A stretch of 64,000 bases of DNA from a virus. Below, in pieces: positions 10,353 to 61,194 of this stretch (positions are counted from its first letter, which is position 1; every line of letters begins with the position of its first letter). The position numbers and the translations under genes were made by a program. Location of the stretch: positions 62,001-126,000 of IMG/VR virus record IMGVR_UViG_3300017963_000188. One strand, written 5' to 3'. The notes under the pieces are model-generated. The model searched no databases and was not told the origin of the DNA. It saw nothing but the letters and a program-made list of their open reading frames with translations.

Positions 10353-10766
10353 ATGTTAAGTAAAGAACTGAAAAAGATTGCAAAGAACATTAATAACCCC
10401 CCGAAGACTTCTGCCTTCATGGAGCCTGAAATCATCTTGGATGATTGGGTTTCTGTCGATGGTCCTATGGGTGGGGAGTCTACCCCTGCTGAATATATAG
10501 ATCTTGATGAAGTAGCTGAACTTCAGAAAGAGATTGATGAAAAGGGTGAAGTCTCTCTGGAAGGAACTTCATTGAATGACTACTTCGAGAACCGTTCAGC
10601 CTATGAGATTGAAGTCTCCAAGGGATATGGTGCTCGTCTTTCAGCTCCTGGATATATGGATGCCACAGGTTGGTCTGTTTTTGACACTGAGGCAGAGGCC
10701 CGAGAATATCTGATGGAGACATATGACCTAGATGAAAATCTTGAAGAGATTGAAGAAGATTGGTAG
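10353..10766 (+). CDS. Leader-bearing acidic protein (LKKIA type)
   Basis: A 137-residue acidic protein that starts MLSKELKKIAKNI, one of the LRKLA-like leaders in this window. The remainder ends in a run of acidic residues (DLDENLEEIEEDW). No known domain. It lies 60 bases after the ATPase-zincin gene and meets a convergent gene end to end. Confidence 0.65.
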   Translation: MLSKELKKIAKNINNPPKTSAFMEPEIILDDWVSVDGPMGGESTPAEYIDLDEVAELQKEIDEKGEVSLEGTSLNDYFENRSAYEIEVSKGYGARLSAPGYMDATGWSVFDTEAEAREYLMETYDLDENLEEIEEDW

Positions 10767-13669: not shown

Positions 13670-14680
13670 ATGGGTAATGAAAAATACCAGGATGGAAGCA
13701 GCATCTGTGTTGTGGCAAAAGTACCTGAACATATCGCTTGTCAATTCCCAAAAGATGCTGATGAAGATGCTGATGATCCACATATCACAGTGCTTTATAT
13801 TGGTGATATGCCTAGAGAGAAGACAGGCACATTAATCAATACCTGCAAAAACATTTTTGGTCAGATACCATTTTTACGAGCAAGGTTAGATTCGAAGGTC
13901 TCATACTTTGACCCCTCAGATAGCTCAGAGGGTCGTAGAGTAGCTAAACTAGATGTTAAATGCCCTGACCTTCATTATTTCCACAAGCGTCTCTGGGACG
14001 AATTAGAAGGTGCTGGTGTGGATGTAGCTCATTCATTCCCTGAATACCATCCTCATGTCACTTTGGATTACATAGAACCAGACACTGAATATGAAGGTCC
14101 AGTACCTAATGGTGAATGGGATATTGATGGTATTGAGATTTGGGGGTGGGAAGATCATATCAGAATCCCGTTTATCAGCATTGAAATCATAGCTGATAAT
14201 GTTGTAGCTAGGGTCTTAGCAAACCGTGTAGTTTCTAGAGTTATGCAAGCACAATGGTCACGTCTAAAAAATCACTTCAATGTCAGAAACCCTCTGTTCC
14301 ATGCCACTACTGGACCCCGTGCTATGAAAGTCATTGAAGAAGGATTCAAATCAGATAGTGGATATTCTGATTACGGGATGGGAAATGTTTTGGGAGTCTC
14401 TTTCTCAAGAAGCCTCGAATATCTATTAGGAGGTCACTTCGGGAATGCTATCTTTGTGGTAGATAAAGATGAACTTGGGAGCAAGTTCAAAGTAGATCAT
14501 GTAGAGTCTTATCCAGAAGAACGAGAAGAGAGGGTAGTCACCAAACACCTTCCACCCAAATACATCAAGGGATTAATCTTCAATGGTAAGCTATTGAAAG
14601 GAGACTTCCCATACTTTTCATCACTACCTTTTCCAGTTGTGCATCGACCAAAAAGTGACTGGGTATTGATTGGAGAATGA
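13670..14680 (+). CDS. 2H phosphoesterase fused to an ADP-ribosyltransferase-like domain
   Basis: A 336-residue two-domain protein behind GGAGGTACAAT. Residues 1-175 carry the paired HxT motifs of 2H phosphoesterases: H38-I-T40 and H129-V-T131. Such enzymes open 2',3' or 1'',2'' cyclic phosphates. Residues 179-197 (ARVLANRVVSRVMQ) resemble the SRVI leaders used by other proteins here. Residues 205-336 look like an ART fold: FHATT (210-214), GVSFSRSL (242-249) and an acidic EEREERV (283-289) that could supply the catalytic Glu. The ART call is weaker than the 2H call. The two activities could act on tRNA ends and ADP-ribosylated by-products. Confidence 0.75.
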   Translation: MGNEKYQDGSSICVVAKVPEHIACQFPKDADEDADDPHITVLYIGDMPREKTGTLINTCKNIFGQIPFLRARLDSKVSYFDPSDSSEGRRVAKLDVKCPDLHYFHKRLWDELEGAGVDVAHSFPEYHPHVTLDYIEPDTEYEGPVPNGEWDIDGIEIWGWEDHIRIPFISIEIIADNVVARVLANRVVSRVMQAQWSRLKNHFNVRNPLFHATTGPRAMKVIEEGFKSDSGYSDYGMGNVLGVSFSRSLEYLLGGHFGNAIFVVDKDELGSKFKVDHVESYPEEREERVVTKHLPPKYIKGLIFNGKLLKGDFPYFSSLPFPVVHRPKSDWVLIGE

Positions 14681-17128: not shown

Positions 17129-17243
17129 CTGTCTCCTCATCTTCCTCAGACATAGCTACAGTTTTGCCTGTTTTCAAATTTACATAATGAGAACCTATTA
17201 CGGACCATCCATCATCATCTATTTTATATTCTCCTTCAAGCAT
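17052..17243 (-). CDS. Small acidic unknown protein
   Basis: A 63-residue frame between the CCA-adding enzyme and the methyltransferase. ATG at 17243 lies inside the end of the former, behind GGAAAG. The N-terminal 45 residues look like a real small domain (DDDGWSVIGSHYVNLKTGK). The rest overlaps the methyltransferase start in another frame, so its true 3' extent is uncertain. Confidence 0.45.
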   Translation of the reverse strand: MLEGEYKIDDDGWSVIGSHYVNLKTGKTVAMSEEDEETDGDSQARQDLLPDDTCNSRREGGEL

Positions 17244-18594
17244 CTTGTTCTTTCCGATGTTGAAACACAATCTGCATCAGAGCTTCCATGTTGTTGTCTT
17301 CTGGCACATCCAGGACATGCTCCATCAAAGCATTCAACACTACACCCACTTGAGGACCAGGCTTGACACCCAGAGCCTGCATCACATCATGCCCATCCAC
17401 AGCCAAGTTACGTGGACTATTGGGGGTGAAGTCTTTTTGCTCATCACATCGTTTCTTGAAGGTCACGAAATCTTCGTGGTCCTTCTCAGACATCCCAGCA
17501 GAACGACTCCCAGCTTTGTCTGCAAAGCTCAAGATGAAAAAGTCTTTCAGACGTTCTTTCCCAATCTTGTTGATAAACCTTCTCACACCAGGATCTTTCA
17601 TCCTCCTGTTGCTTTGATCTGCCATATGGTGAAACACCAAATGCTTTACGAATTCTCGTTCTTCATTGGAGAACTTCATTCGACGCATGAAGTCTTCAGT
17701 GATACGAGCTGATTCTTTTTGATGATCTATGAATGCAAATTCACCTCGACGTTCGTCAAATTCCCTGACCACAGGCTTTCCAATATCATGTAGGAAAGCA
17801 GCCAGACGGATCAAGGGCCTATCAGCAGGGACATTCTTGATCACTGCTACGGTATGTCCCCACACATCAAAGTCATGGTAATGGTTCTGCTTGCAATCAA
17901 ACATAGCCTCTGCTTCTGGGCAGAAGTGTTCAAACAGACCACAGATTCTCAACTGTCTTAGGCCAGTTTCCACATGTTCTGAAGACAGAATCTTCATGAA
18001 CTCATCCCTGATTCGTTCTGGTGATACCTTAGTCAAGACCTTTGAACAGTCCTTCATTGCTTGCAAAGTAAATGGTTCGATCTGAAATCCTAACCGAGAT
18101 GCAAATCTGATTGCTCTCATCACTCTCAGACCGTCTTCCAAAAACCGATCCTTAGCTTTCCCTACTGCTTGGATCAACCCTGCCTTCAGGTCTTTCTCTC
18201 CACCAAAAGGATCTACCAAGACATCATCAATAGGATCAAAAGCCATTGCATTGATAGTGAAGTCACGACGGCTCAGGTCCTCATTAATGTCACTGATAAA
18301 ATCCACAGAATCAGGACGACGACCATCACTGTAGTTTCCATCACCCCTTAGGGTAGTGGCTTCAAAACCCTCACCATCAATCATGACTGTAACGGTACCA
18401 TACTCGATTCCCGTGGGTACAACTTTGGGGAACATGGCTACTACTTGATCTGGAAGAGCAGAAGTACAGATGTCCCAGTCTTTTGGATCTAGACCTAGAA
18501 TTGCATCTCGAACAGACCCACCTACGATGTGGGCAGAGAAGCCTTTTTCCTTCAGGCTCTTGATGATTTCTACAACTGGCTCTGGAACTCTCAT
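17236..18594 (-). CDS. cca: CCA-adding tRNA nucleotidyltransferase with HD domain
   Basis: A 452-residue class II tRNA nucleotidyltransferase that adds or repairs the 3' CCA of tRNA without a template. The head has IVGGSVRDAILG and DPKDWDICT (metal-binding DxD), then SRRDFTINAMAFD and RVMRAIRFASRLGF (the ERxxxE/DxxR nucleotide-choice region is in this stretch). Residues 235-330 hold an HD hydrolase domain with FLHDIGKP, as in the E. coli type. A promoter-like TCGGTATAGAAT lies upstream. All 28 tRNA genes here already encode CCA, so its job is probably repair of damaged ends. Confidence 0.95.
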   Translation of the reverse strand: MRVPEPVVEIIKSLKEKGFSAHIVGGSVRDAILGLDPKDWDICTSALPDQVVAMFPKVVPTGIEYGTVTVMIDGEGFEATTLRGDGNYSDGRRPDSVDFISDINEDLSRRDFTINAMAFDPIDDVLVDPFGGEKDLKAGLIQAVGKAKDRFLEDGLRVMRAIRFASRLGFQIEPFTLQAMKDCSKVLTKVSPERIRDEFMKILSSEHVETGLRQLRICGLFEHFCPEAEAMFDCKQNHYHDFDVWGHTVAVIKNVPADRPLIRLAAFLHDIGKPVVREFDERRGEFAFIDHQKESARITEDFMRRMKFSNEEREFVKHLVFHHMADQSNRRMKDPGVRRFINKIGKERLKDFFILSFADKAGSRSAGMSEKDHEDFVTFKKRCDEQKDFTPNSPRNLAVDGHDVMQALGVKPGPQVGVVLNALMEHVLDVPEDNNMEALMQIVFQHRKEQDA

Positions 18595-33514: not shown

Positions 33515-33602
33515 TGGTGCCGGGGGAGGGAATCGAACCCTCACGAGATTTCTCTCATCGGATTTTGAATCCGACGTGTCTACCTAGTTCCACCACCCCG
33601 GC
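33515..33602 (-). tRNA. tRNA-Leu(CAA)
   Basis: An 88-base class II tRNA. Acceptor GCCGGGG pairs with CCCCGGC, anticodon loop TTCAAAA, long variable arm, encoded CCA. It decodes TTG. Last in transcription of six adjacent leucine tRNAs. Confidence 0.95.
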
Positions 33603-33606
33603 TATA

Positions 33607-33692
33607 TGGTGCTGGAGGAGGGATTTGAACCCTCAATCCCTTACGGGCATAGCGTCCTGAACGCTACGTGTATACCGTTCCACCACTCCAGC
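33607..33692 (-). tRNA. tRNA-Leu(CAG)
   Basis: An 86-base class II tRNA. Acceptor GCTGGAG pairs with CTCCAGC, anticodon loop TTCAGGA, encoded CCA. It decodes CTG. Confidence 0.95.
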
Positions 33693-33700
33693 AAATTGTT

Positions 33701-33788
33701 TGGTGCCGGAAGAGGGAATCGAACCCCCACGGGACAAGTCCCACTAGGACCTAAACCTAGCGTGTCTGCCTAGTTCCACCATTCCGGC
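33701..33788 (-). tRNA. tRNA-Leu(TAG)
   Basis: An 88-base class II tRNA. Acceptor GCCGGAA pairs with TTCCGGC, anticodon loop TTTAGGT, encoded CCA. It is a second Leu(TAG), with a different body from the copy at 30.2 kb. Confidence 0.95.
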
Positions 33789-33789
33789 C

Positions 33790-33875
33790 TGGTGTCTGGG
33801 GAGGGGATCGAACCCTCAAGCCTTTCGGCACAGCGACCTCAACGCTGCGTGTCTACCTAATTTCACCACCCAGAC
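33790..33875 (-). tRNA. tRNA-Leu(GAG)
   Basis: An 86-base class II tRNA. Acceptor GTCTGGG pairs with CCCAGAC, anticodon loop TTGAGGT, encoded CCA. It decodes CTC and CTT. Only one base separates it from the next gene. Confidence 0.95.
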
Positions 33876-33877
33876 TT

Positions 33878-33962
33878 TGGTGCTCAGGGAGGGATTCGAA
33901 CCCTCAAGCCTTTCGGCACAGGATTCTTAGTCCTGCGTGTATACCAGTTCCACCACCCGAGC
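33878..33962 (-). tRNA. tRNA-Leu(AAG), unusual A34
   Basis: An 85-base class II tRNA. Acceptor GCTCGGG pairs with CCTGAGC (one G-T pair). The anticodon stem CAGGA/TCCTG encloses CTAAGAA, giving anticodon AAG with A37. A34 is rare in bacterial tRNAs outside Arg(ACG) and needs deamination to inosine to read widely. CTN-reading leucine tRNAs normally have G37, as the three CTN-reading neighbours do. Confidence 0.85.
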
Positions 33963-33969
33963 ATATTTT

Positions 33970-34056
33970 TGGTGCTGGGGGAGGGAATCGAACCCTCACG
34001 ACACAAGGCCAGGGGATTTTAAGTCCCCAGTGTCTACCTAATTCCACCACCCCAGC
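33970..34056 (-). tRNA. tRNA-Leu(TAA)
   Basis: An 87-base class II tRNA. Acceptor GCTGGGG pairs with CCCCAGC, anticodon loop CTTAAAA, encoded CCA. It decodes TTA. First of the leucine array in the direction of transcription. Confidence 0.95.
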
Positions 34057-34297: not shown

Positions 34298-35224
34298 CTA
34301 AAAAATACTTCCGTCTTCATTAAATTCATATTCATTGACCATGATATTTTCATCTACATTCTCATCAGCCATCAACCAATCATATTCTTTTTCAAGAGCT
34401 TGGTAGTAATCTTGAGCATAGTATCGAGCTTGTTCAAGACCCCATTCATTGAGTTCTTCTACTTCTCTTTCAAGAGCCTCATCAAACTTGTCTACTTCAT
34501 CTTCTGACCAGTCATCAGCATCTTCATAATTATCTACAGATGGAGCACGGATGTCGTCACCGTGCATTGTATTTGAATGATAGTAATGCCCAGAATGAGT
34601 GATGTTGAGGTGATAATCCTCATAGTCTTCACCACCCATTTCTTCCATGAGCTTTACAAAAGAAGGGAATTGCTTTTCAGCACCTTCACTATGAATGAGC
34701 TTGAGAAGGTCTACAGAACCTTCCCAGCTTGCACCGTCACCCTGACTAGCAAAACCAGAAAAGTACATCTTGTCAATGTCAAAACCCTTTTTCTCACCAT
34801 CTTCCTTGAACTGCTCTTCAAGAAAATCCCACCACTCGTAATCAAGGGCTCCATCACGCCACCATTCACGAGCCTTATCTTTAGCTTGATCGTCAAGTTC
34901 GTCAAACTTGTAGACCTCTTTTTCAACGGTTCTTGGGAGAGCTACTTTTCTTTGTGACTGATATCTATACATGTTCGACCTCTTTGCTGCCTTGTTGAAA
35001 TACTTTACTGCCTCATCTTCTTTCTTGAAGTAATGACCCCAATAGAAACCATTGCCTTTAGACCATCTCCAGACACCCCAAGGTGATGCTGAAGAGTCAG
35101 AAAAACCTAAGGCATACCATTCCTGACCATCCTTACGTTTCACATTCCTGATATCGTATGCTCCAGCACTGGTTTCCATTCCTGGGGGTAACTGCACTCC
35201 TGCTGCTTTTTTATATCTATACAT
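34298..35224 (-). CDS. MYRY-leader acidic protein with an internal second MYRY
   Basis: A 308-residue protein. It starts MYRYKKAAGVQLPPGME; residue 85 starts again as MYRYQSQRKVALPR. The first unit (20-84) is beta-rich with Trp. The second (100-308) is acidic and holds DKMYFSGFASQGDGASWEG, a motif I recall from uncharacterised phage proteins (SGF-SQGDGA). The repeated leader with its own Met suggests two leader-type proteins fused, perhaps cleaved apart later. Confidence 0.75.
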   Translation of the reverse strand: MYRYKKAAGVQLPPGMETSAGAYDIRNVKRKDGQEWYALGFSDSSASPWGVWRWSKGNGFYWGHYFKKEDEAVKYFNKAAKRSNMYRYQSQRKVALPRTVEKEVYKFDELDDQAKDKAREWWRDGALDYEWWDFLEEQFKEDGEKKGFDIDKMYFSGFASQGDGASWEGSVDLLKLIHSEGAEKQFPSFVKLMEEMGGEDYEDYHLNITHSGHYYHSNTMHGDDIRAPSVDNYEDADDWSEDEVDKFDEALEREVEELNEWGLEQARYYAQDYYQALEKEYDWLMADENVDENIMVNEYEFNEDGSIF

Positions 35225-35650: not shown

Positions 35651-35941
35651 ATGCAAATCAGTGCTCAATTAAGAAGACTAGCCAAAGAAATATATCAAGT
35701 GCGGTTAAGCCAAGATCTGATAGATCGTTTAGAAGATTGGGTTTTTGGAACCACAGGTTATGTATCTATAATTTTCAATAATTCTAGAAATTACAAAGAC
35801 GTACCTCTGCAATTAGTTCTAGATACAATATCTGAACTTGAGGGGCCTCTTTATCTAAAGAGCCCCACCCTATCTCTATACGAAAAAGATGAGATAAAAG
35901 ATTTGATCCGTCGATTGAAGAGCTATGTACCTATGCAGTAG
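35651..35941 (+). CDS. Leader-bearing small protein (LRRLA type)
   Basis: A 96-residue protein that starts MQISAQLRRLAKEIYQ, closely like the LRKLA leaders at 8.7 kb and 10.4 kb. The rest has two helices around a GYVSIIFNNSR strand. The start follows AAGGAGATATGTC. Unknown function. Confidence 0.65.
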   Translation: MQISAQLRRLAKEIYQVRLSQDLIDRLEDWVFGTTGYVSIIFNNSRNYKDVPLQLVLDTISELEGPLYLKSPTLSLYEKDEIKDLIRRLKSYVPMQ

Positions 35942-39646: not shown

Positions 39647-39811
39647 ATGAAAGCATGGGGAATTGAACATCTAGAAGAATTGAAGCAGGCCCAACAGGTC
39701 CAACCACAGCAACTCCAATTGGAACTTGATGTGCCTACCTATCCTGAGTACGATAATTCTGAAGAGAAATTTGATTCAGAAGTGAGTTTTGAGGTTGATT
39801 TCTCGATCTAA
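39647..39811 (+). CDS. Small glutamine-rich acidic protein
   Basis: A 54-residue protein in a well-formed context: bipartite promoter motif, AGTAGGAGGTG, then ATG. It has a Gln-rich middle (LKQAQQVQPQQLQLELD) and an acidic end. Its stop overlaps the stop of the convergent gene by four bases. Unknown function. Confidence 0.6.
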   Translation: MKAWGIEHLEELKQAQQVQPQQLQLELDVPTYPEYDNSEEKFDSEVSFEVDFSI

Positions 39812-40143
39812 CGTCTACGAGTCCTACGAACCCTATTTTGCCTAGCCTTACGAGCCTTACGTTTTTTAGCACCCATGATAGCTCTTTGAGCTTCTTGGAC
39901 AGCTTTAGATAGATCTTCAACCTTTCTCAGTTCCTGATCGCTAAGGTCTTGAATCTTGACATCACCCCAACCTTTGAATAGCTCTTCTAGATCTTCACCA
40001 AGATCCTTGAACATTTCAACGTCTTGAGCTTTCTTATTTCTAGCAGTCCTAACTACTTCTGTTGGGATCACCCATTCATTGTCGTGGGACTTGTGAATTT
40101 TACGAGCCCTACGGGGGCTTCGATTATCATTGTAACGGTACAT
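39808..40143 (-). CDS. MYRY-leader protein with very basic tail
   Basis: A 111-residue protein that starts MYRYNDNRSPRRARKI. An acidic helix (about 42-75) is followed by a tail of Arg and Lys from residue 90 (KKRKARKARQNRVRRTRRR), which must bind nucleic acid or acidic protein. The MYRY leader plus a basic tail would suit a protein packaged with DNA (inference). Confidence 0.65.
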   Translation of the reverse strand: MYRYNDNRSPRRARKIHKSHDNEWVIPTEVVRTARNKKAQDVEMFKDLGEDLEELFKGWGDVKIQDLSDQELRKVEDLSKAVQEAQRAIMGAKKRKARKARQNRVRRTRRR

Positions 40144-46076: not shown

Positions 46077-46709
46077 TTACTCTTCCATGTATTCTACCCA
46101 CTTCTCTACATCACGCTCCATATCATTGATCTCATGGAGTTCAGCATACTCAAAGACTTGAGCAGCCCTATCTTCAAGATAGGCTTCTTCCCATGCCTGA
46201 TCATAGAATGGGGAGTCATACTGACCAAGCCAGGCAGCCCAGTTCCATTCCTTAGCATCTTCATGCATAGGTGAGTCTGAGAATTGGTAGAAAAGACCTG
46301 AAGGCTCATAGTCTTCAGATTCATCCCCAAGAGATACTGTGACTGTCATTCCCACATAGCCAAGACCAGAATTTACATCCCAAGTCACTTGTACTTCAAC
46401 ATCAGGATGAATGTCTTTAAGGGCATTGAGAACTTCTTCTTTCACTGCTTCAGCAGTCTGGTCAAACTTTTCACTGGTATCCAATTCATAGAAAGTTTCC
46501 ATGCTGCGAGCAAGTTCTTTTTGAACTTCAGGCTTTATGGTGACGAAATCAACCTCATCCTCATCGGTTCTGGTGACTTCAACATCATCCCAAAGGTTGT
46601 ATTCATCCAAGAAAGAGCTATATTCTTCAGTGTCAATCTCTTCACCAAAATCAGGCAAATAGGACTGTGCCTTCTTTGATCGTTCAATAACTCGTGATAT
46701 GAGATCCAT
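46077..46709 (-). CDS. Leader-bearing acidic protein (SRVIxR type)
   Basis: A 210-residue very acidic protein. The leader MDLISRVIERSKKAQSYL closely matches MDIVSRVIQRYLRASRYD of the LigD-like protein at 60.7 kb, although the bodies are unrelated. ATG at 46709 is chosen because AGGAGGT ends seven bases before it; ATG at 46715 is too close. The rest has a strand pair (VTWDVNSGLGYVGMTVTVSLG) and a Trp-rich part (EWNWAAWLGQYDSPFYDQAW). Unknown function. Confidence 0.7.
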   Translation of the reverse strand: MDLISRVIERSKKAQSYLPDFGEEIDTEEYSSFLDEYNLWDDVEVTRTDEDEVDFVTIKPEVQKELARSMETFYELDTSEKFDQTAEAVKEEVLNALKDIHPDVEVQVTWDVNSGLGYVGMTVTVSLGDESEDYEPSGLFYQFSDSPMHEDAKEWNWAAWLGQYDSPFYDQAWEEAYLEDRAAQVFEYAELHEINDMERDVEKWVEYMEE

Positions 46710-53482: not shown

Positions 53483-53569
53483 TGGCAGAGGGGAGGGGAC
53501 TCGAACCCCTAAGGCTTTTACACCCACCCGATTAGCAGTCGGGCCTCTTACCAATTAGAGTACCCCTCT
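53483..53569 (-). tRNA. tRNA-Ser(GCT)
   Basis: An 87-base class II tRNA. Acceptor AGAGGGG, anticodon loop CTGCTAA in stem CCCGA/TCGGG, long variable arm, encoded CCA. It decodes AGC and AGT. Its 3' half is nearly identical to tRNA-Ser(GGA) at 51.5 kb. Confidence 0.95.
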
Positions 53570-53580
53570 GTAAAAATTAT

Positions 53581-53671
53581 TGGCAGAGGGGGTGGGATTC
53601 GAACCCACGGGGGCTTTGACACCCCACCGGTTTTCAAGACCGGCACCATAGACCAGCTCGGACACCCCTCT
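53581..53671 (-). tRNA. tRNA-Ser(TGA)
   Basis: A 91-base class II tRNA. Acceptor AGAGGGG, anticodon loop CTTGAAA in stem CCGGT/ACCGG, encoded CCA. It decodes TCA and others of the TCN box. Confidence 0.95.
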
Positions 53672-53691
53672 GTATTTAACAACCTCCTTAT

Positions 53692-53767
53692 TGGCAGGGG
53701 TGCTGGGATTCGAACCCAGAGTCCAGGTTTTGGAGACCTGTGGTTTAGCCATTAACCGACACCCCTG
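53692..53767 (-). tRNA. tRNA-Trp(CCA)
   Basis: A 76-base tRNA. Acceptor CAGGGGT pairs with ACCCCTG, anticodon loop CTCCAAA in stem CAGGT/ACCTG, G73, encoded CCA. Confidence 0.95.
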
Positions 53768-53772
53768 TATTT

Positions 53773-53848
53773 TGGTGGGTCCAGAGGGATTTGAACCCCC
53801 GACCTTCTGATTAAGAATCAGCAGCTCTACCAACTGAGCTATGGACCC
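53773..53848 (-). tRNA. tRNA-Lys(CTT)
   Basis: A 76-base tRNA. Acceptor GGGTCCA pairs with TGGACCC, anticodon loop TTCTTAA, A73, encoded CCA. One weak pair ends the anticodon stem. It decodes AAG. Confidence 0.9.
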
Positions 53849-53860
53849 TTCATTGCTCCT

Positions 53861-53937
53861 TGGTGGGATGGGAGGGACTTGAACCCCCGACGCTTGGAAC
53901 TTCAACCCAACGCTCTACCAATCTGAGCTACCATCCC
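53861..53937 (-). tRNA. tRNA-Phe(GAA)
   Basis: A 77-base tRNA. Acceptor GGGATGG pairs with CCATCCC, anticodon loop TTGAAGT in stem TTGGG/TCCAA, encoded CCA. First of two different tRNA-Phe genes. Confidence 0.92.
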
Positions 53938-53942
53938 ACAAA

Positions 53943-54029
53943 TGGTGGGCCGGGGAGGATTTGAACCTCCGTAGCCTTGCAGCGGCAGATTTACAGTCTG
54001 CTCCCTTTGACCAACTCGGGCACCGACCC
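53943..54029 (-). tRNA. tRNA-Tyr(GTA)
   Basis: An 87-base class II tRNA. Acceptor GGGTCGG pairs with CCGGCCC (one G-T), anticodon loop CTGTAAA, long variable arm, encoded CCA. Confidence 0.95.
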
Positions 54030-54037
54030 ATAATTTT

Positions 54038-54114
54038 TGGCGAGCCAGGTGGGACTCGAACCCACAACACTCGGATTAAAAGTCCGATACGCTACCAAAT
54101 TGCGTCACTGGCTC
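54038..54114 (-). tRNA. tRNA-Lys(TTT)
   Basis: A 77-base tRNA. Acceptor GAGCCAG pairs with CTGGCTC, anticodon loop CTTTTAA in stem TCGGA/TCCGA, G73, encoded CCA. Confidence 0.95.
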
Positions 54115-54146
54115 ACTATTTAATGCCTCCTATCGAGACTTATCAT

Positions 54147-54221
54147 TGGCGGGAACGGAGGGATTCGAACCCCCAACCTAGCGGTTAACAGCCGCTAGCT
54201 CTACCATTGAGCTACGTTCCC
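54147..54221 (-). tRNA. tRNA-Asn(GTT)
   Basis: A 75-base tRNA. Acceptor GGGAACG pairs with CGTTCCC, anticodon loop CTGTTAA in stem AGCGG/CCGCT, G73, encoded CCA. Confidence 0.95.
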
Positions 54222-54228
54222 AGTTATT

Positions 54229-54316
54229 TGGTGGGCAGGGAAGGATTCGAACCTCCGTACCCCCGAAGGGGATCGGGTCTACAGCCCGACGCCATTAACC
54301 ACTCGGCCACCTGCCC
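54229..54316 (-). tRNA. tRNA-Tyr(GTA), second gene
   Basis: An 88-base class II tRNA. Acceptor GGGCAGG pairs with CCTGCCC, anticodon loop CTGTAGA with G rather than A at 38-1, and a different body from the Tyr gene at 53.9 kb. Encoded CCA. The two have separate origins. Confidence 0.94.
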
Positions 54317-55492: not shown

Positions 55493-56356
55493 ATGATAAT
55501 AAGACCGAAAGATTGGGAAGCTACAAGTGATGAAGCTGTAGATTTCTTGAACTCTATACAAAGACCAAAACACTATTATAGAGGTATGACCGATCAAGAA
55601 TATAAAGCTACGGTCGGTAAAGGTGATCCAGTCCAATCCACAGGAGCTTTCTCTCACAGTTCTGAAGGGACAAATTTCTCAGAATATCCTGCTGATGCTG
55701 AGAGCTATGTAAACTTTGGTCGTGATGACCCAAGAAGAACTGGGAAATCAAATTGGCTTGTAGAAGTAGCAGAAACCCCAACCATGTATCGAGACACTGA
55801 TGGGTACTACAAAGATAAAGAACCTGTAGATACCGTGACAAGGATATGGGAATTTTACCCCGAAGATGGAGCTATCAAGACTAGGAAAGTGAAGGGTAGT
55901 GATATGAGACTAGTGAATCGAGTTGCTCTTAGACATTTGTTTGCTAGATATGCTGATGAAGTTAAAAAAGAGCTGAAATACGATGTCAAGAATATGAAAG
56001 GTGTAGAAACAGTCAAAGAGTACCACAAGGAATTCACCCCTGGGTCACAGAAGGGTGGAGCTTTCCCTGATATGGACTTAATAGAAATGGTATGGGTCGT
56101 TGGTGATGGAGAACAAGGGAACTACACAGTGATGTGTGAACTCTATGTAGAAAAGGGTGGGATCTTACTTCGAGATGAAGGGCCTCAAGAAACCTTTGCA
56201 GGTTCAGTTCGAGGTGAAGCTGCTCTTGGACCTAAGGGAGGGCTTCAATCTGTAAGACAGATCCAAGGTGAAAAGTTCACTGGTAAGCTGGATGAAGTGG
56301 TTGGTAAGTTCGACAAAGCCATTGGTAAAATGATTCAACAACTTGAAGCTATGTAA
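55493..56356 (+). CDS. ADP-ribosyltransferase-like protein with an internal leader motif
   Basis: A 287-residue protein behind AGAGGTG. Residues 25-95 resemble an R-S-E-type ART: HYYRGM (27-32, NAD-binding Arg), QSTGAFSHSS (48-57, the STS-like strand) and later acidic residues; no ExE is certain, so the call is tentative. At residue 138 a new unit begins with MRLVNRVALRHLFARYADEV, like the SRVI leaders and beginning with its own Met. Residues 155-287 form a second beta-rich domain. It looks like two leader-type proteins joined. Confidence 0.6.
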   Translation: MIIRPKDWEATSDEAVDFLNSIQRPKHYYRGMTDQEYKATVGKGDPVQSTGAFSHSSEGTNFSEYPADAESYVNFGRDDPRRTGKSNWLVEVAETPTMYRDTDGYYKDKEPVDTVTRIWEFYPEDGAIKTRKVKGSDMRLVNRVALRHLFARYADEVKKELKYDVKNMKGVETVKEYHKEFTPGSQKGGAFPDMDLIEMVWVVGDGEQGNYTVMCELYVEKGGILLRDEGPQETFAGSVRGEAALGPKGGLQSVRQIQGEKFTGKLDEVVGKFDKAIGKMIQQLEAM

Positions 56357-60666: not shown

Positions 60667-61194
60667 ATGGATATTGTCAGTAGAGTAATCCAACGCTATC
60701 TCAGAGCGTCTAGATACGATACAGATAGTCTTGAGCCTGGTTACATTGGAAAGTACGTGATACATGACCACAGGGCTCAGAACAGGCATTTTGATTTACG
60801 TTTAGAGTTCCCTACCAGCAAGGGAAAAGTTTTCCGTTCCTGGACCATTCCCAAACACACTATTCCCAAAAGTGTAGGTGATAAAGTCCTTGCCACAGAG
60901 ACAGAAGACCACCCAATGAGTTGGGGTGATGTTGTAGATTTTGATGAGACACATGAAATCCCTGAAGGTGAGTATGGTGCTGGTACTGTCAAACTCTATG
61001 ACAAAGGTAAATTTGCTCTCATAGATATGGACTATGATAGTAAGTATGTCTTCAAAATGATTGGTGAGAAACTTGATGGAGTCTGGTCTTTAGTCAAAAC
61101 TGATGGTAAGAACTTCCTTTTGGTACGTTCAAGTGCTGATCAACCAGAACTTGAAGAACCTGAAGTACAAAAAGCGATCAAAAAGTTGGAATAG
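60667..61194 (+). CDS. Stand-alone LigD-type 3'-phosphoesterase with SRVI leader
   Basis: A 175-residue protein. The leader MDIVSRVIQRYLRASRYD matches the one at 46.7 kb. The rest is the 3'-phosphoesterase domain of bacterial ligase LigD: YVIHDHRAQNRHFDLRLEF (metal-binding His and Asp), SWTIPK, ATETEDHPMSWGDV, IPEGEYGAGTVKLYDKG and EKLDGVWSLVKT. In LigD it trims 3' ribonucleotides and phosphates during end joining. Here neither the ligase nor the polymerase domain is attached. It probably heals DNA or RNA 3' ends. It follows AAGGAGATCCC. Confidence 0.9.
   Translation: MDIVSRVIQRYLRASRYDTDSLEPGYIGKYVIHDHRAQNRHFDLRLEFPTSKGKVFRSWTIPKHTIPKSVGDKVLATETEDHPMSWGDVVDFDETHEIPEGEYGAGTVKLYDKGKFALIDMDYDSKYVFKMIGEKLDGVWSLVKTDGKNFLLVRSSADQPELEEPEVQKAIKKLE

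Follow-up and report, generated by a model that had tools for sequence, protein, structure and literature searches.

A short basic peptide on unrelated proteins of huge phages as a probable signal for loading into the virus head

Two unrelated proteins of a huge phage start with a similar basic, amphipathic tag of 13–15 residues, which recurs, mostly at the N-terminus, on many unrelated proteins of related phages. On balance, we favour the view that the peptide is a capsid-targeting tag. Because dozens of copies are present on anti-defence and repair enzymes of related phages, and the tag is also found on one protein encoded in the apparent head-building gene block (the head-block protein), it probably serves to place helper proteins in the virus head, from which they would be injected. 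The stretch analysed, here termed the window, is 64 kb long and comprises bases 62001-126000 of G000, a virus record of 358,038 bp.

Results

The original prediction, that an acidic protein and a LigD-like enzyme share a leader on unrelated bodies, was borne out at both places (Table 1), with a Shine-Dalgarno sequence at the proper distance before each leader start (gaggaggt...ATG; aaggagatcccATG). The placement of the Shine-Dalgarno sequence makes MDLIS, rather than the upstream MEMDLIS, the likely true start. The body of the LigD-like protein is assigned by Pfam (PF13298, E 3.8e-21, 75.7 bits against a cut-off of 31.1), whereas the acidic protein belongs to no recognised family and has no relative in viral contigs, nor in 25 related records; a single-sequence structure model of it (mean pLDDT 41) was too poor to use. 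The five core residues common to both leaders (S, R, V, I, R) are encoded by different codons, so that the likeness lies in the peptide and not in copied DNA. By pairwise comparison the two leaders give a 13-mer score of 38, towards the upper end of the distribution for N-terminal pairs as a whole, but such a score is neither exceptional nor decisive: 39 N-terminal pairs score at least 36, compared with about 9 in shuffles and 17–18 in interior or C-terminal segments. The same leader was therefore sought in relatives of the phage.

Table 1. Positions of leaders, tags and tagged or control proteins; positions are those of the window unless prefixed G000.
Feature	Position	Strand	Remarks
Leader MDLISRVIERSKKA, residues 1–14 of the acidic protein	46668..46709	(-)	rank 2 of 522 with the independently trained matrix
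Leader MDIVSRVIQRYLRA, residues 1–14 of the LigD-like protein	60667..60708	(+)	rank 1 of 522 with the same matrix
Acidic leader-bearing protein (cargo), 210 aa	46077..46709	(-)	no Pfam or PHROG family
LigD-type 3'-phosphoesterase (cargo), 175 aa	60667..61194	(+)	PF13298, residues 33–144
2H phosphoesterase domain (2'-5' RNA ligase), internal tag, possible ADP-ribosyltransferase-like domain	13670..14680	(+)	PF13563; second domain by eye only
Internal tag DNVVARVLANRVVSRVMQAQ between the two domains	14195..14254	(+)	matrix score 16.9
287-aa protein with internal tag	55493..56356	(+)	N-terminal part possibly ADP-ribosyltransferase-like (by eye)
Internal tag RLVNRVALRHLFARYADE	55907..55960	(+)	matrix score 13.2
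CCA-adding enzyme without leader (control)	17236..18594	(-)	Pfam head domain from residue 22
MYRY leaders, in the window	34298-35224; 39808-40143	(-); (-)	
MYRY leaders, outside the window	G000:27148, 27669, 41874, 43021, 43460		
LRKIA leaders, in the window	10353-10766; 35651-35941	(+); (+)	
LRKIA leaders, outside the window	G000:31369, 57797, 326853, 356976, 42680		

The major head protein of the phage (G000:214801-215676) matches PHROG 2522 (E 5e-51), as in phage G-like huge phages. To judge by this capsid protein, the phage is kin to LR745208 (79% identity), Tunturi_5 (46%) and Bacillus phage G (38%), and the same protein links it to at least 80 IMG/VR contigs. Four long relatives (G001, G008, G010 and G019) were examined over most or all of their length. 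The window also has 28 tRNA genes, all on the minus strand (30241-63801), including six Leu tRNAs in a row at 33515-34056 and a Ser/Trp/Lys/Phe/Tyr/Asn cluster at 53483-54316.

A matrix of 15 columns was trained only on these four long relatives, with the window's phage left out, and corresponds to the consensus [A/S]-x-R-V-[V/A]-x-R-[Y/F]-L-x-A. When applied to the 522 proteins of G000 it placed the LigD-like protein at the top (24.7), followed by the acidic protein (19.9); with the Met columns removed, the LigD-like protein remained first (21.6) and the acidic protein became third (16.8). In 200 shuffles there were 0.01 hits of at least 16 per genome, and none reached the scores of the two leaders. 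Since the training set consisted of the other four genomes only, this confirmation of the leaders is not circular. A genome-wide scan for the motif at N-termini had been set beforehand as the test on which the proposed leader could fall; its outcome, with the two leaders first and second and never matched by shuffles, favours the motif. A third N-terminal member, MYRKMADRVVARSQKTA, lies outside the window (G000:42128-42643, minus strand) and is better than the peptide at 13.6 kb, MLPEVDRIISAIEKAQ, which had been put forward as a weaker match and was discarded as a third member on its matrix score of only 3.1.

In leave-one-genome-out scans the N-terminal hits numbered 20 in G001, 18 in G008, 24 in G010 and 10 in G019, the corresponding expectation, taken from interior blocks of these proteins, being 2.8, 1.9, 2.8 and 1.5, respectively. 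The tag is present on 6–25 N-termini per genome in the long relatives, compared with 0–0.3 expected, e.g. MPTASRVAERYVAA, MMIAVRVAARYLQA and METCNHRVVQRYLNS. Four records kept out of training (W01, G012, G021 and G016) together gave 14 N-terminal hits (about 0 in shuffles), 27 internal hits (about 3.4) and 7 C-terminal hits (about 0.6). Because genes were called as the longest open frames, some of the 'internal' copies near a Met are in fact N-terminal. The matrix scan of phage G and Tunturi_5, used as negative controls, gave no N-terminal hit and no excess, so that only a part of the clade has the tag.

With respect to its properties, the tag has a helical moment of 0.46 compared with 0.32 in shuffles (z 6.9) and a net charge of about +1.7; the identities R0, V1, R4 and Y/F5 are fixed, whereas the small residue in Y/F-L-x-A is only moderately conserved. 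No description of the motif was found in the open-access literature searched, and a search upstream of tagged genes for a shared motif indicative of late expression gave nothing consistent. A DNA-pattern scan of viral contigs for RVAARYLxA gave 77 hits, most of them from one unrelated protein family; the remainder comprised a few true tags, additional copies of the head-block protein (L323 being one, met independently in this way) and a protein that has the tag and weakly matches PARP-like sequences. The letters RVAARYLTAATGLT also recur, in other contigs, within an unrelated conserved phage protein of about 430 aa (...NCIVLCNEESYHRVAARYL...; L303, L331 and many other loci), which is a coincidence and a pitfall for motif scans.

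The tag is a separable module, because homologues of both the LigD-like and the CCA-adding enzymes exist without it. The unleadered LigD homologue (L021) starts at the residues that match A14-S15-R16-Y17 of the window protein, and the Pfam head domain of the CCA-adding enzyme begins at residue 22 in the window's protein but at residues 46 and 44 in the enzymes of G008 and G010, which bear the leader.

By Pfam, the tagged proteins include topoisomerase IB (G001, G008, G010), CCA-adding enzymes (G008, G010), zeta-type kinases (G008, G010 and, weakly, G019), a DUF5662 protein (G001), a protein with an LPD1 domain (G010) and, in G008, a leader-bearing Tad3 anti-Thoeris protein of 423 aa (L126:17560-18831, plus strand; PF25185, 2.3e-24). 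The cargo of the window recognised by Pfam comprises the LigD phosphoesterase and a 2H domain protein (PF13563, 6.4e-08) that also has a weak match to the anti-CBASS protein Acb1 (PF23474, 4.9e-04, below the curated cut-off); there was no convincing Pfam match for the C-terminal half of the latter. The 287-aa protein with an internal tag likewise had no Pfam match, and its single-sequence structure model (mean pLDDT 35) was unusable. Many further tagged proteins have no recognised family. In one protein (G010:142355-145222) topoisomerase IB follows a second module, with the tag at the domain junction; several relatives are similarly arranged. The cargo classes are of a kind to be expected of early or counter-defence proteins that are injected, and their functions would help at DNA entry, by analogy with the T4 internal proteins and Alt. 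The reading of the shared N-terminus on unrelated cargo as a sorting tag is thus well supported by its clade-wide recurrence, its separability and the classes of cargo; of the original interpretation overall, this part stood and the 13.6-kb example did not.

The gene for the head-block protein lies just upstream of that for the prohead protease, which is also present in the window's phage, and it is this gene position that suggests a role in head assembly. The protein opens with a conserved stretch that ends in D-x-S-x-N-Y-K-x-[IV]-G-G-S. Of 20 distinct orthologs, 14 have the tag directly after this stretch, where 0.16 would be expected, and a second copy often lies further along. This fixed copy is the best evidence tying the tag to head assembly. 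The G000 ortholog is short and does not carry the motif (score -5.7). The head-block protein had no PHROG match, and it showed no detectable homology to a Tunturi_5 protein annotated as 'DNA ejection protein'. The string 'LRRVASRI' in the prohead protease (G000:211503-213008) was considered as a further link to the head and dropped, since the protease orthologs of the relatives lack the motif. By eye, translations of the prohead protease genes of L199 (G003) and L200 (G007) appear to be interrupted by intein-like insertions, two in the case of G007.

Discussion

Chance resemblance of two amphipathic N-termini would be in keeping with the pairwise score, which is unexceptional among all N-terminal pairs, but is already refuted by the ranks given by the independent matrix, by the 200 shuffles, none of which scored as high, and by the scan of the untrained records. 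It is very improbable that the likeness is not a signal in the protein but a nucleic-acid feature, such as translation start context or copied DNA. Every N-terminal tag examined in G000 follows a start preceded by a Shine-Dalgarno sequence, and short pieces of coding sequence could be duplicated by recombination; the use of different codons for the shared residues of the two leaders, and the existence of internal and C-terminal copies, argue against a nucleic-acid feature. A signal in the protein could, alternatively, dock to another partner in the infected cell, either as an amphipathic membrane anchor or as a binder of a phage hub (polymerase, chaperonin or clamp). The basic, helix-like and amphipathic character of the tag is consistent with such a role, as is its occurrence at N-terminal, C-terminal and internal positions, which is typical of docking peptides; we nonetheless think it unlikely, in that the fixed R0, V1, R4 and Y/F5 exceed the needs of a generic membrane helix and the copy in the head-block protein points to head assembly.

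Entry into a phage compartment was one of two models originally offered for the shared leader, co-packaging being the other. We consider it distinctly improbable that the destination of the tagged proteins is not the virion but an intracellular replication compartment, whether an early vesicle or a phage nucleus. Topoisomerase IB and the LigD phosphoesterase act on nucleic acids and could work at replication sites, but the Tad3 and Acb1-like cargo act on cytoplasmic signals, and the motif is present in the head-block protein. Against a phage nucleus in particular, a sequence search of the window's phage and ten related records found no homologue of chimallin, the nuclear-shell protein of the nucleus-forming Chimalliviridae, while detecting the phiKZ positive control. 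Co-packaging is the better of the two models, given the constant place of the motif in the head-block protein and the negative outcome of the chimallin search.

We infer that, in capsid targeting, the tagged proteins are packaged, cleaved and injected. During head assembly the tag would dock the cargo to the procapsid interior, by way of the same partner, be it core, shell or portal, that the tagged head-block protein uses. The prohead protease would then probably clip many of the tags near the conserved small residue, and the cargo (DNA and RNA repair enzymes, anti-Thoeris and anti-CBASS-like proteins, kinases and topoisomerase) would stay in the head, enter the host alongside the DNA and act before phage gene expression. 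Of the two leader-bearing proteins of the window, the LigD phosphoesterase would shield or repair the ends of the entering DNA, and the acidic one may act as an inhibitor or a DNA mimic. A simple leader that is cleaved off would not account for the tags at C termini and domain junctions. It is conceivable, if doubtful, that each effector domain has its own tag, whether at its N terminus, C terminus or at a junction, as a universal module of clade-wide loading, such that fused polyproteins would be taken into the head and processed by the prohead protease to give separate effectors for injection, and a new counter-defence gene would need only to acquire a 13-residue tag for its product to become part of the virion.

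The closest precedents are in phages T4 and P1. The T4 internal proteins are diverse defence proteins that have only the capsid-targeting sequence in common (PMC3012670). As with the tag, the T4 sequence (IPI, IPII, IPIII and Alt) is a short, separable N-terminal peptide on unrelated, fast-evolving proteins, several of which are counter-defence or host-modifying (PMC3012670, PMC7411985). By contrast, the tag is apparently of a different sequence type, is also internal and C-terminal, and has many more clients per genome. With respect to the T4 type of function, a short N-terminal segment occurs on unrelated proteins of one phage, and homologues without the segment exist (LigD L021 and the CCA-adding enzyme of the window's phage); the position is, however, not strictly N-terminal, as the 27 internal and 7 C-terminal copies in the four untrained records show, and in part for this reason the tag is treated as a variant rather than assigned to the T4 family. 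In P1, the first 30 residues of the counter-defence protein DarB bring a reporter into the capsid, the N-terminal packaging signal being less than 30 residues long; the same study detected no consensus when the Dar N-termini were compared (PMC9024508), whereas that of the tag is clear over dozens of proteins. The best reading, by analogy, is that the tag is a variant functionally like the T4 and P1 capsid-targeting sequences, of an apparently new sequence type and also internal.

Two other systems may be compared. The encapsulation peptides of bacterial microcompartments are likewise short, helical, joined to cargo and used in loading a protein shell (PMC11157265, PMC12339742); the tag, by contrast, belongs to a phage system. 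The polyvalent proteins of phages and plasmids (Iyer et al. 2017; PMC5512222) are multidomain proteins, co-injected with DNA, that have ADP-ribosyltransferase, peptidase and other domains, and one tagged protein here shares with them an LPD1 domain; the portions of that account considered note no common targeting peptide, whereas here the tag precedes the domains.

Should the tag prove to be a packaging signal, scanning sequences for it would be a simple way to list the proteins that these uncultured huge phages inject, which cannot at present be read from their genomes, and would name candidate counter-defence proteins of unknown type. Capsid targeting would, in addition, reach beyond T4 and P1 to a large clade of environmental phages.

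G000 has two further types of leader on small unrelated proteins (Table 1). One, MYRY followed by basic residues, is reflected in 11 N-termini that match a YRY/YKY pattern, compared with 1.2 expected from shuffles; a pattern scan of viral contigs found it in no further contig. The other is (M)LSxxLRKIAKxI. Neither type is clearly enriched in the relatives, and our guess is that they may be the lineage's own versions of the tag. The core of the second, L-[RK]-[RK]-[IVL]-A, occurs at 10 N-termini (0.9 expected), and an identical LRKIA leader is present in one other contig, IMGVR_UViG_3300017971_000194 (L381).
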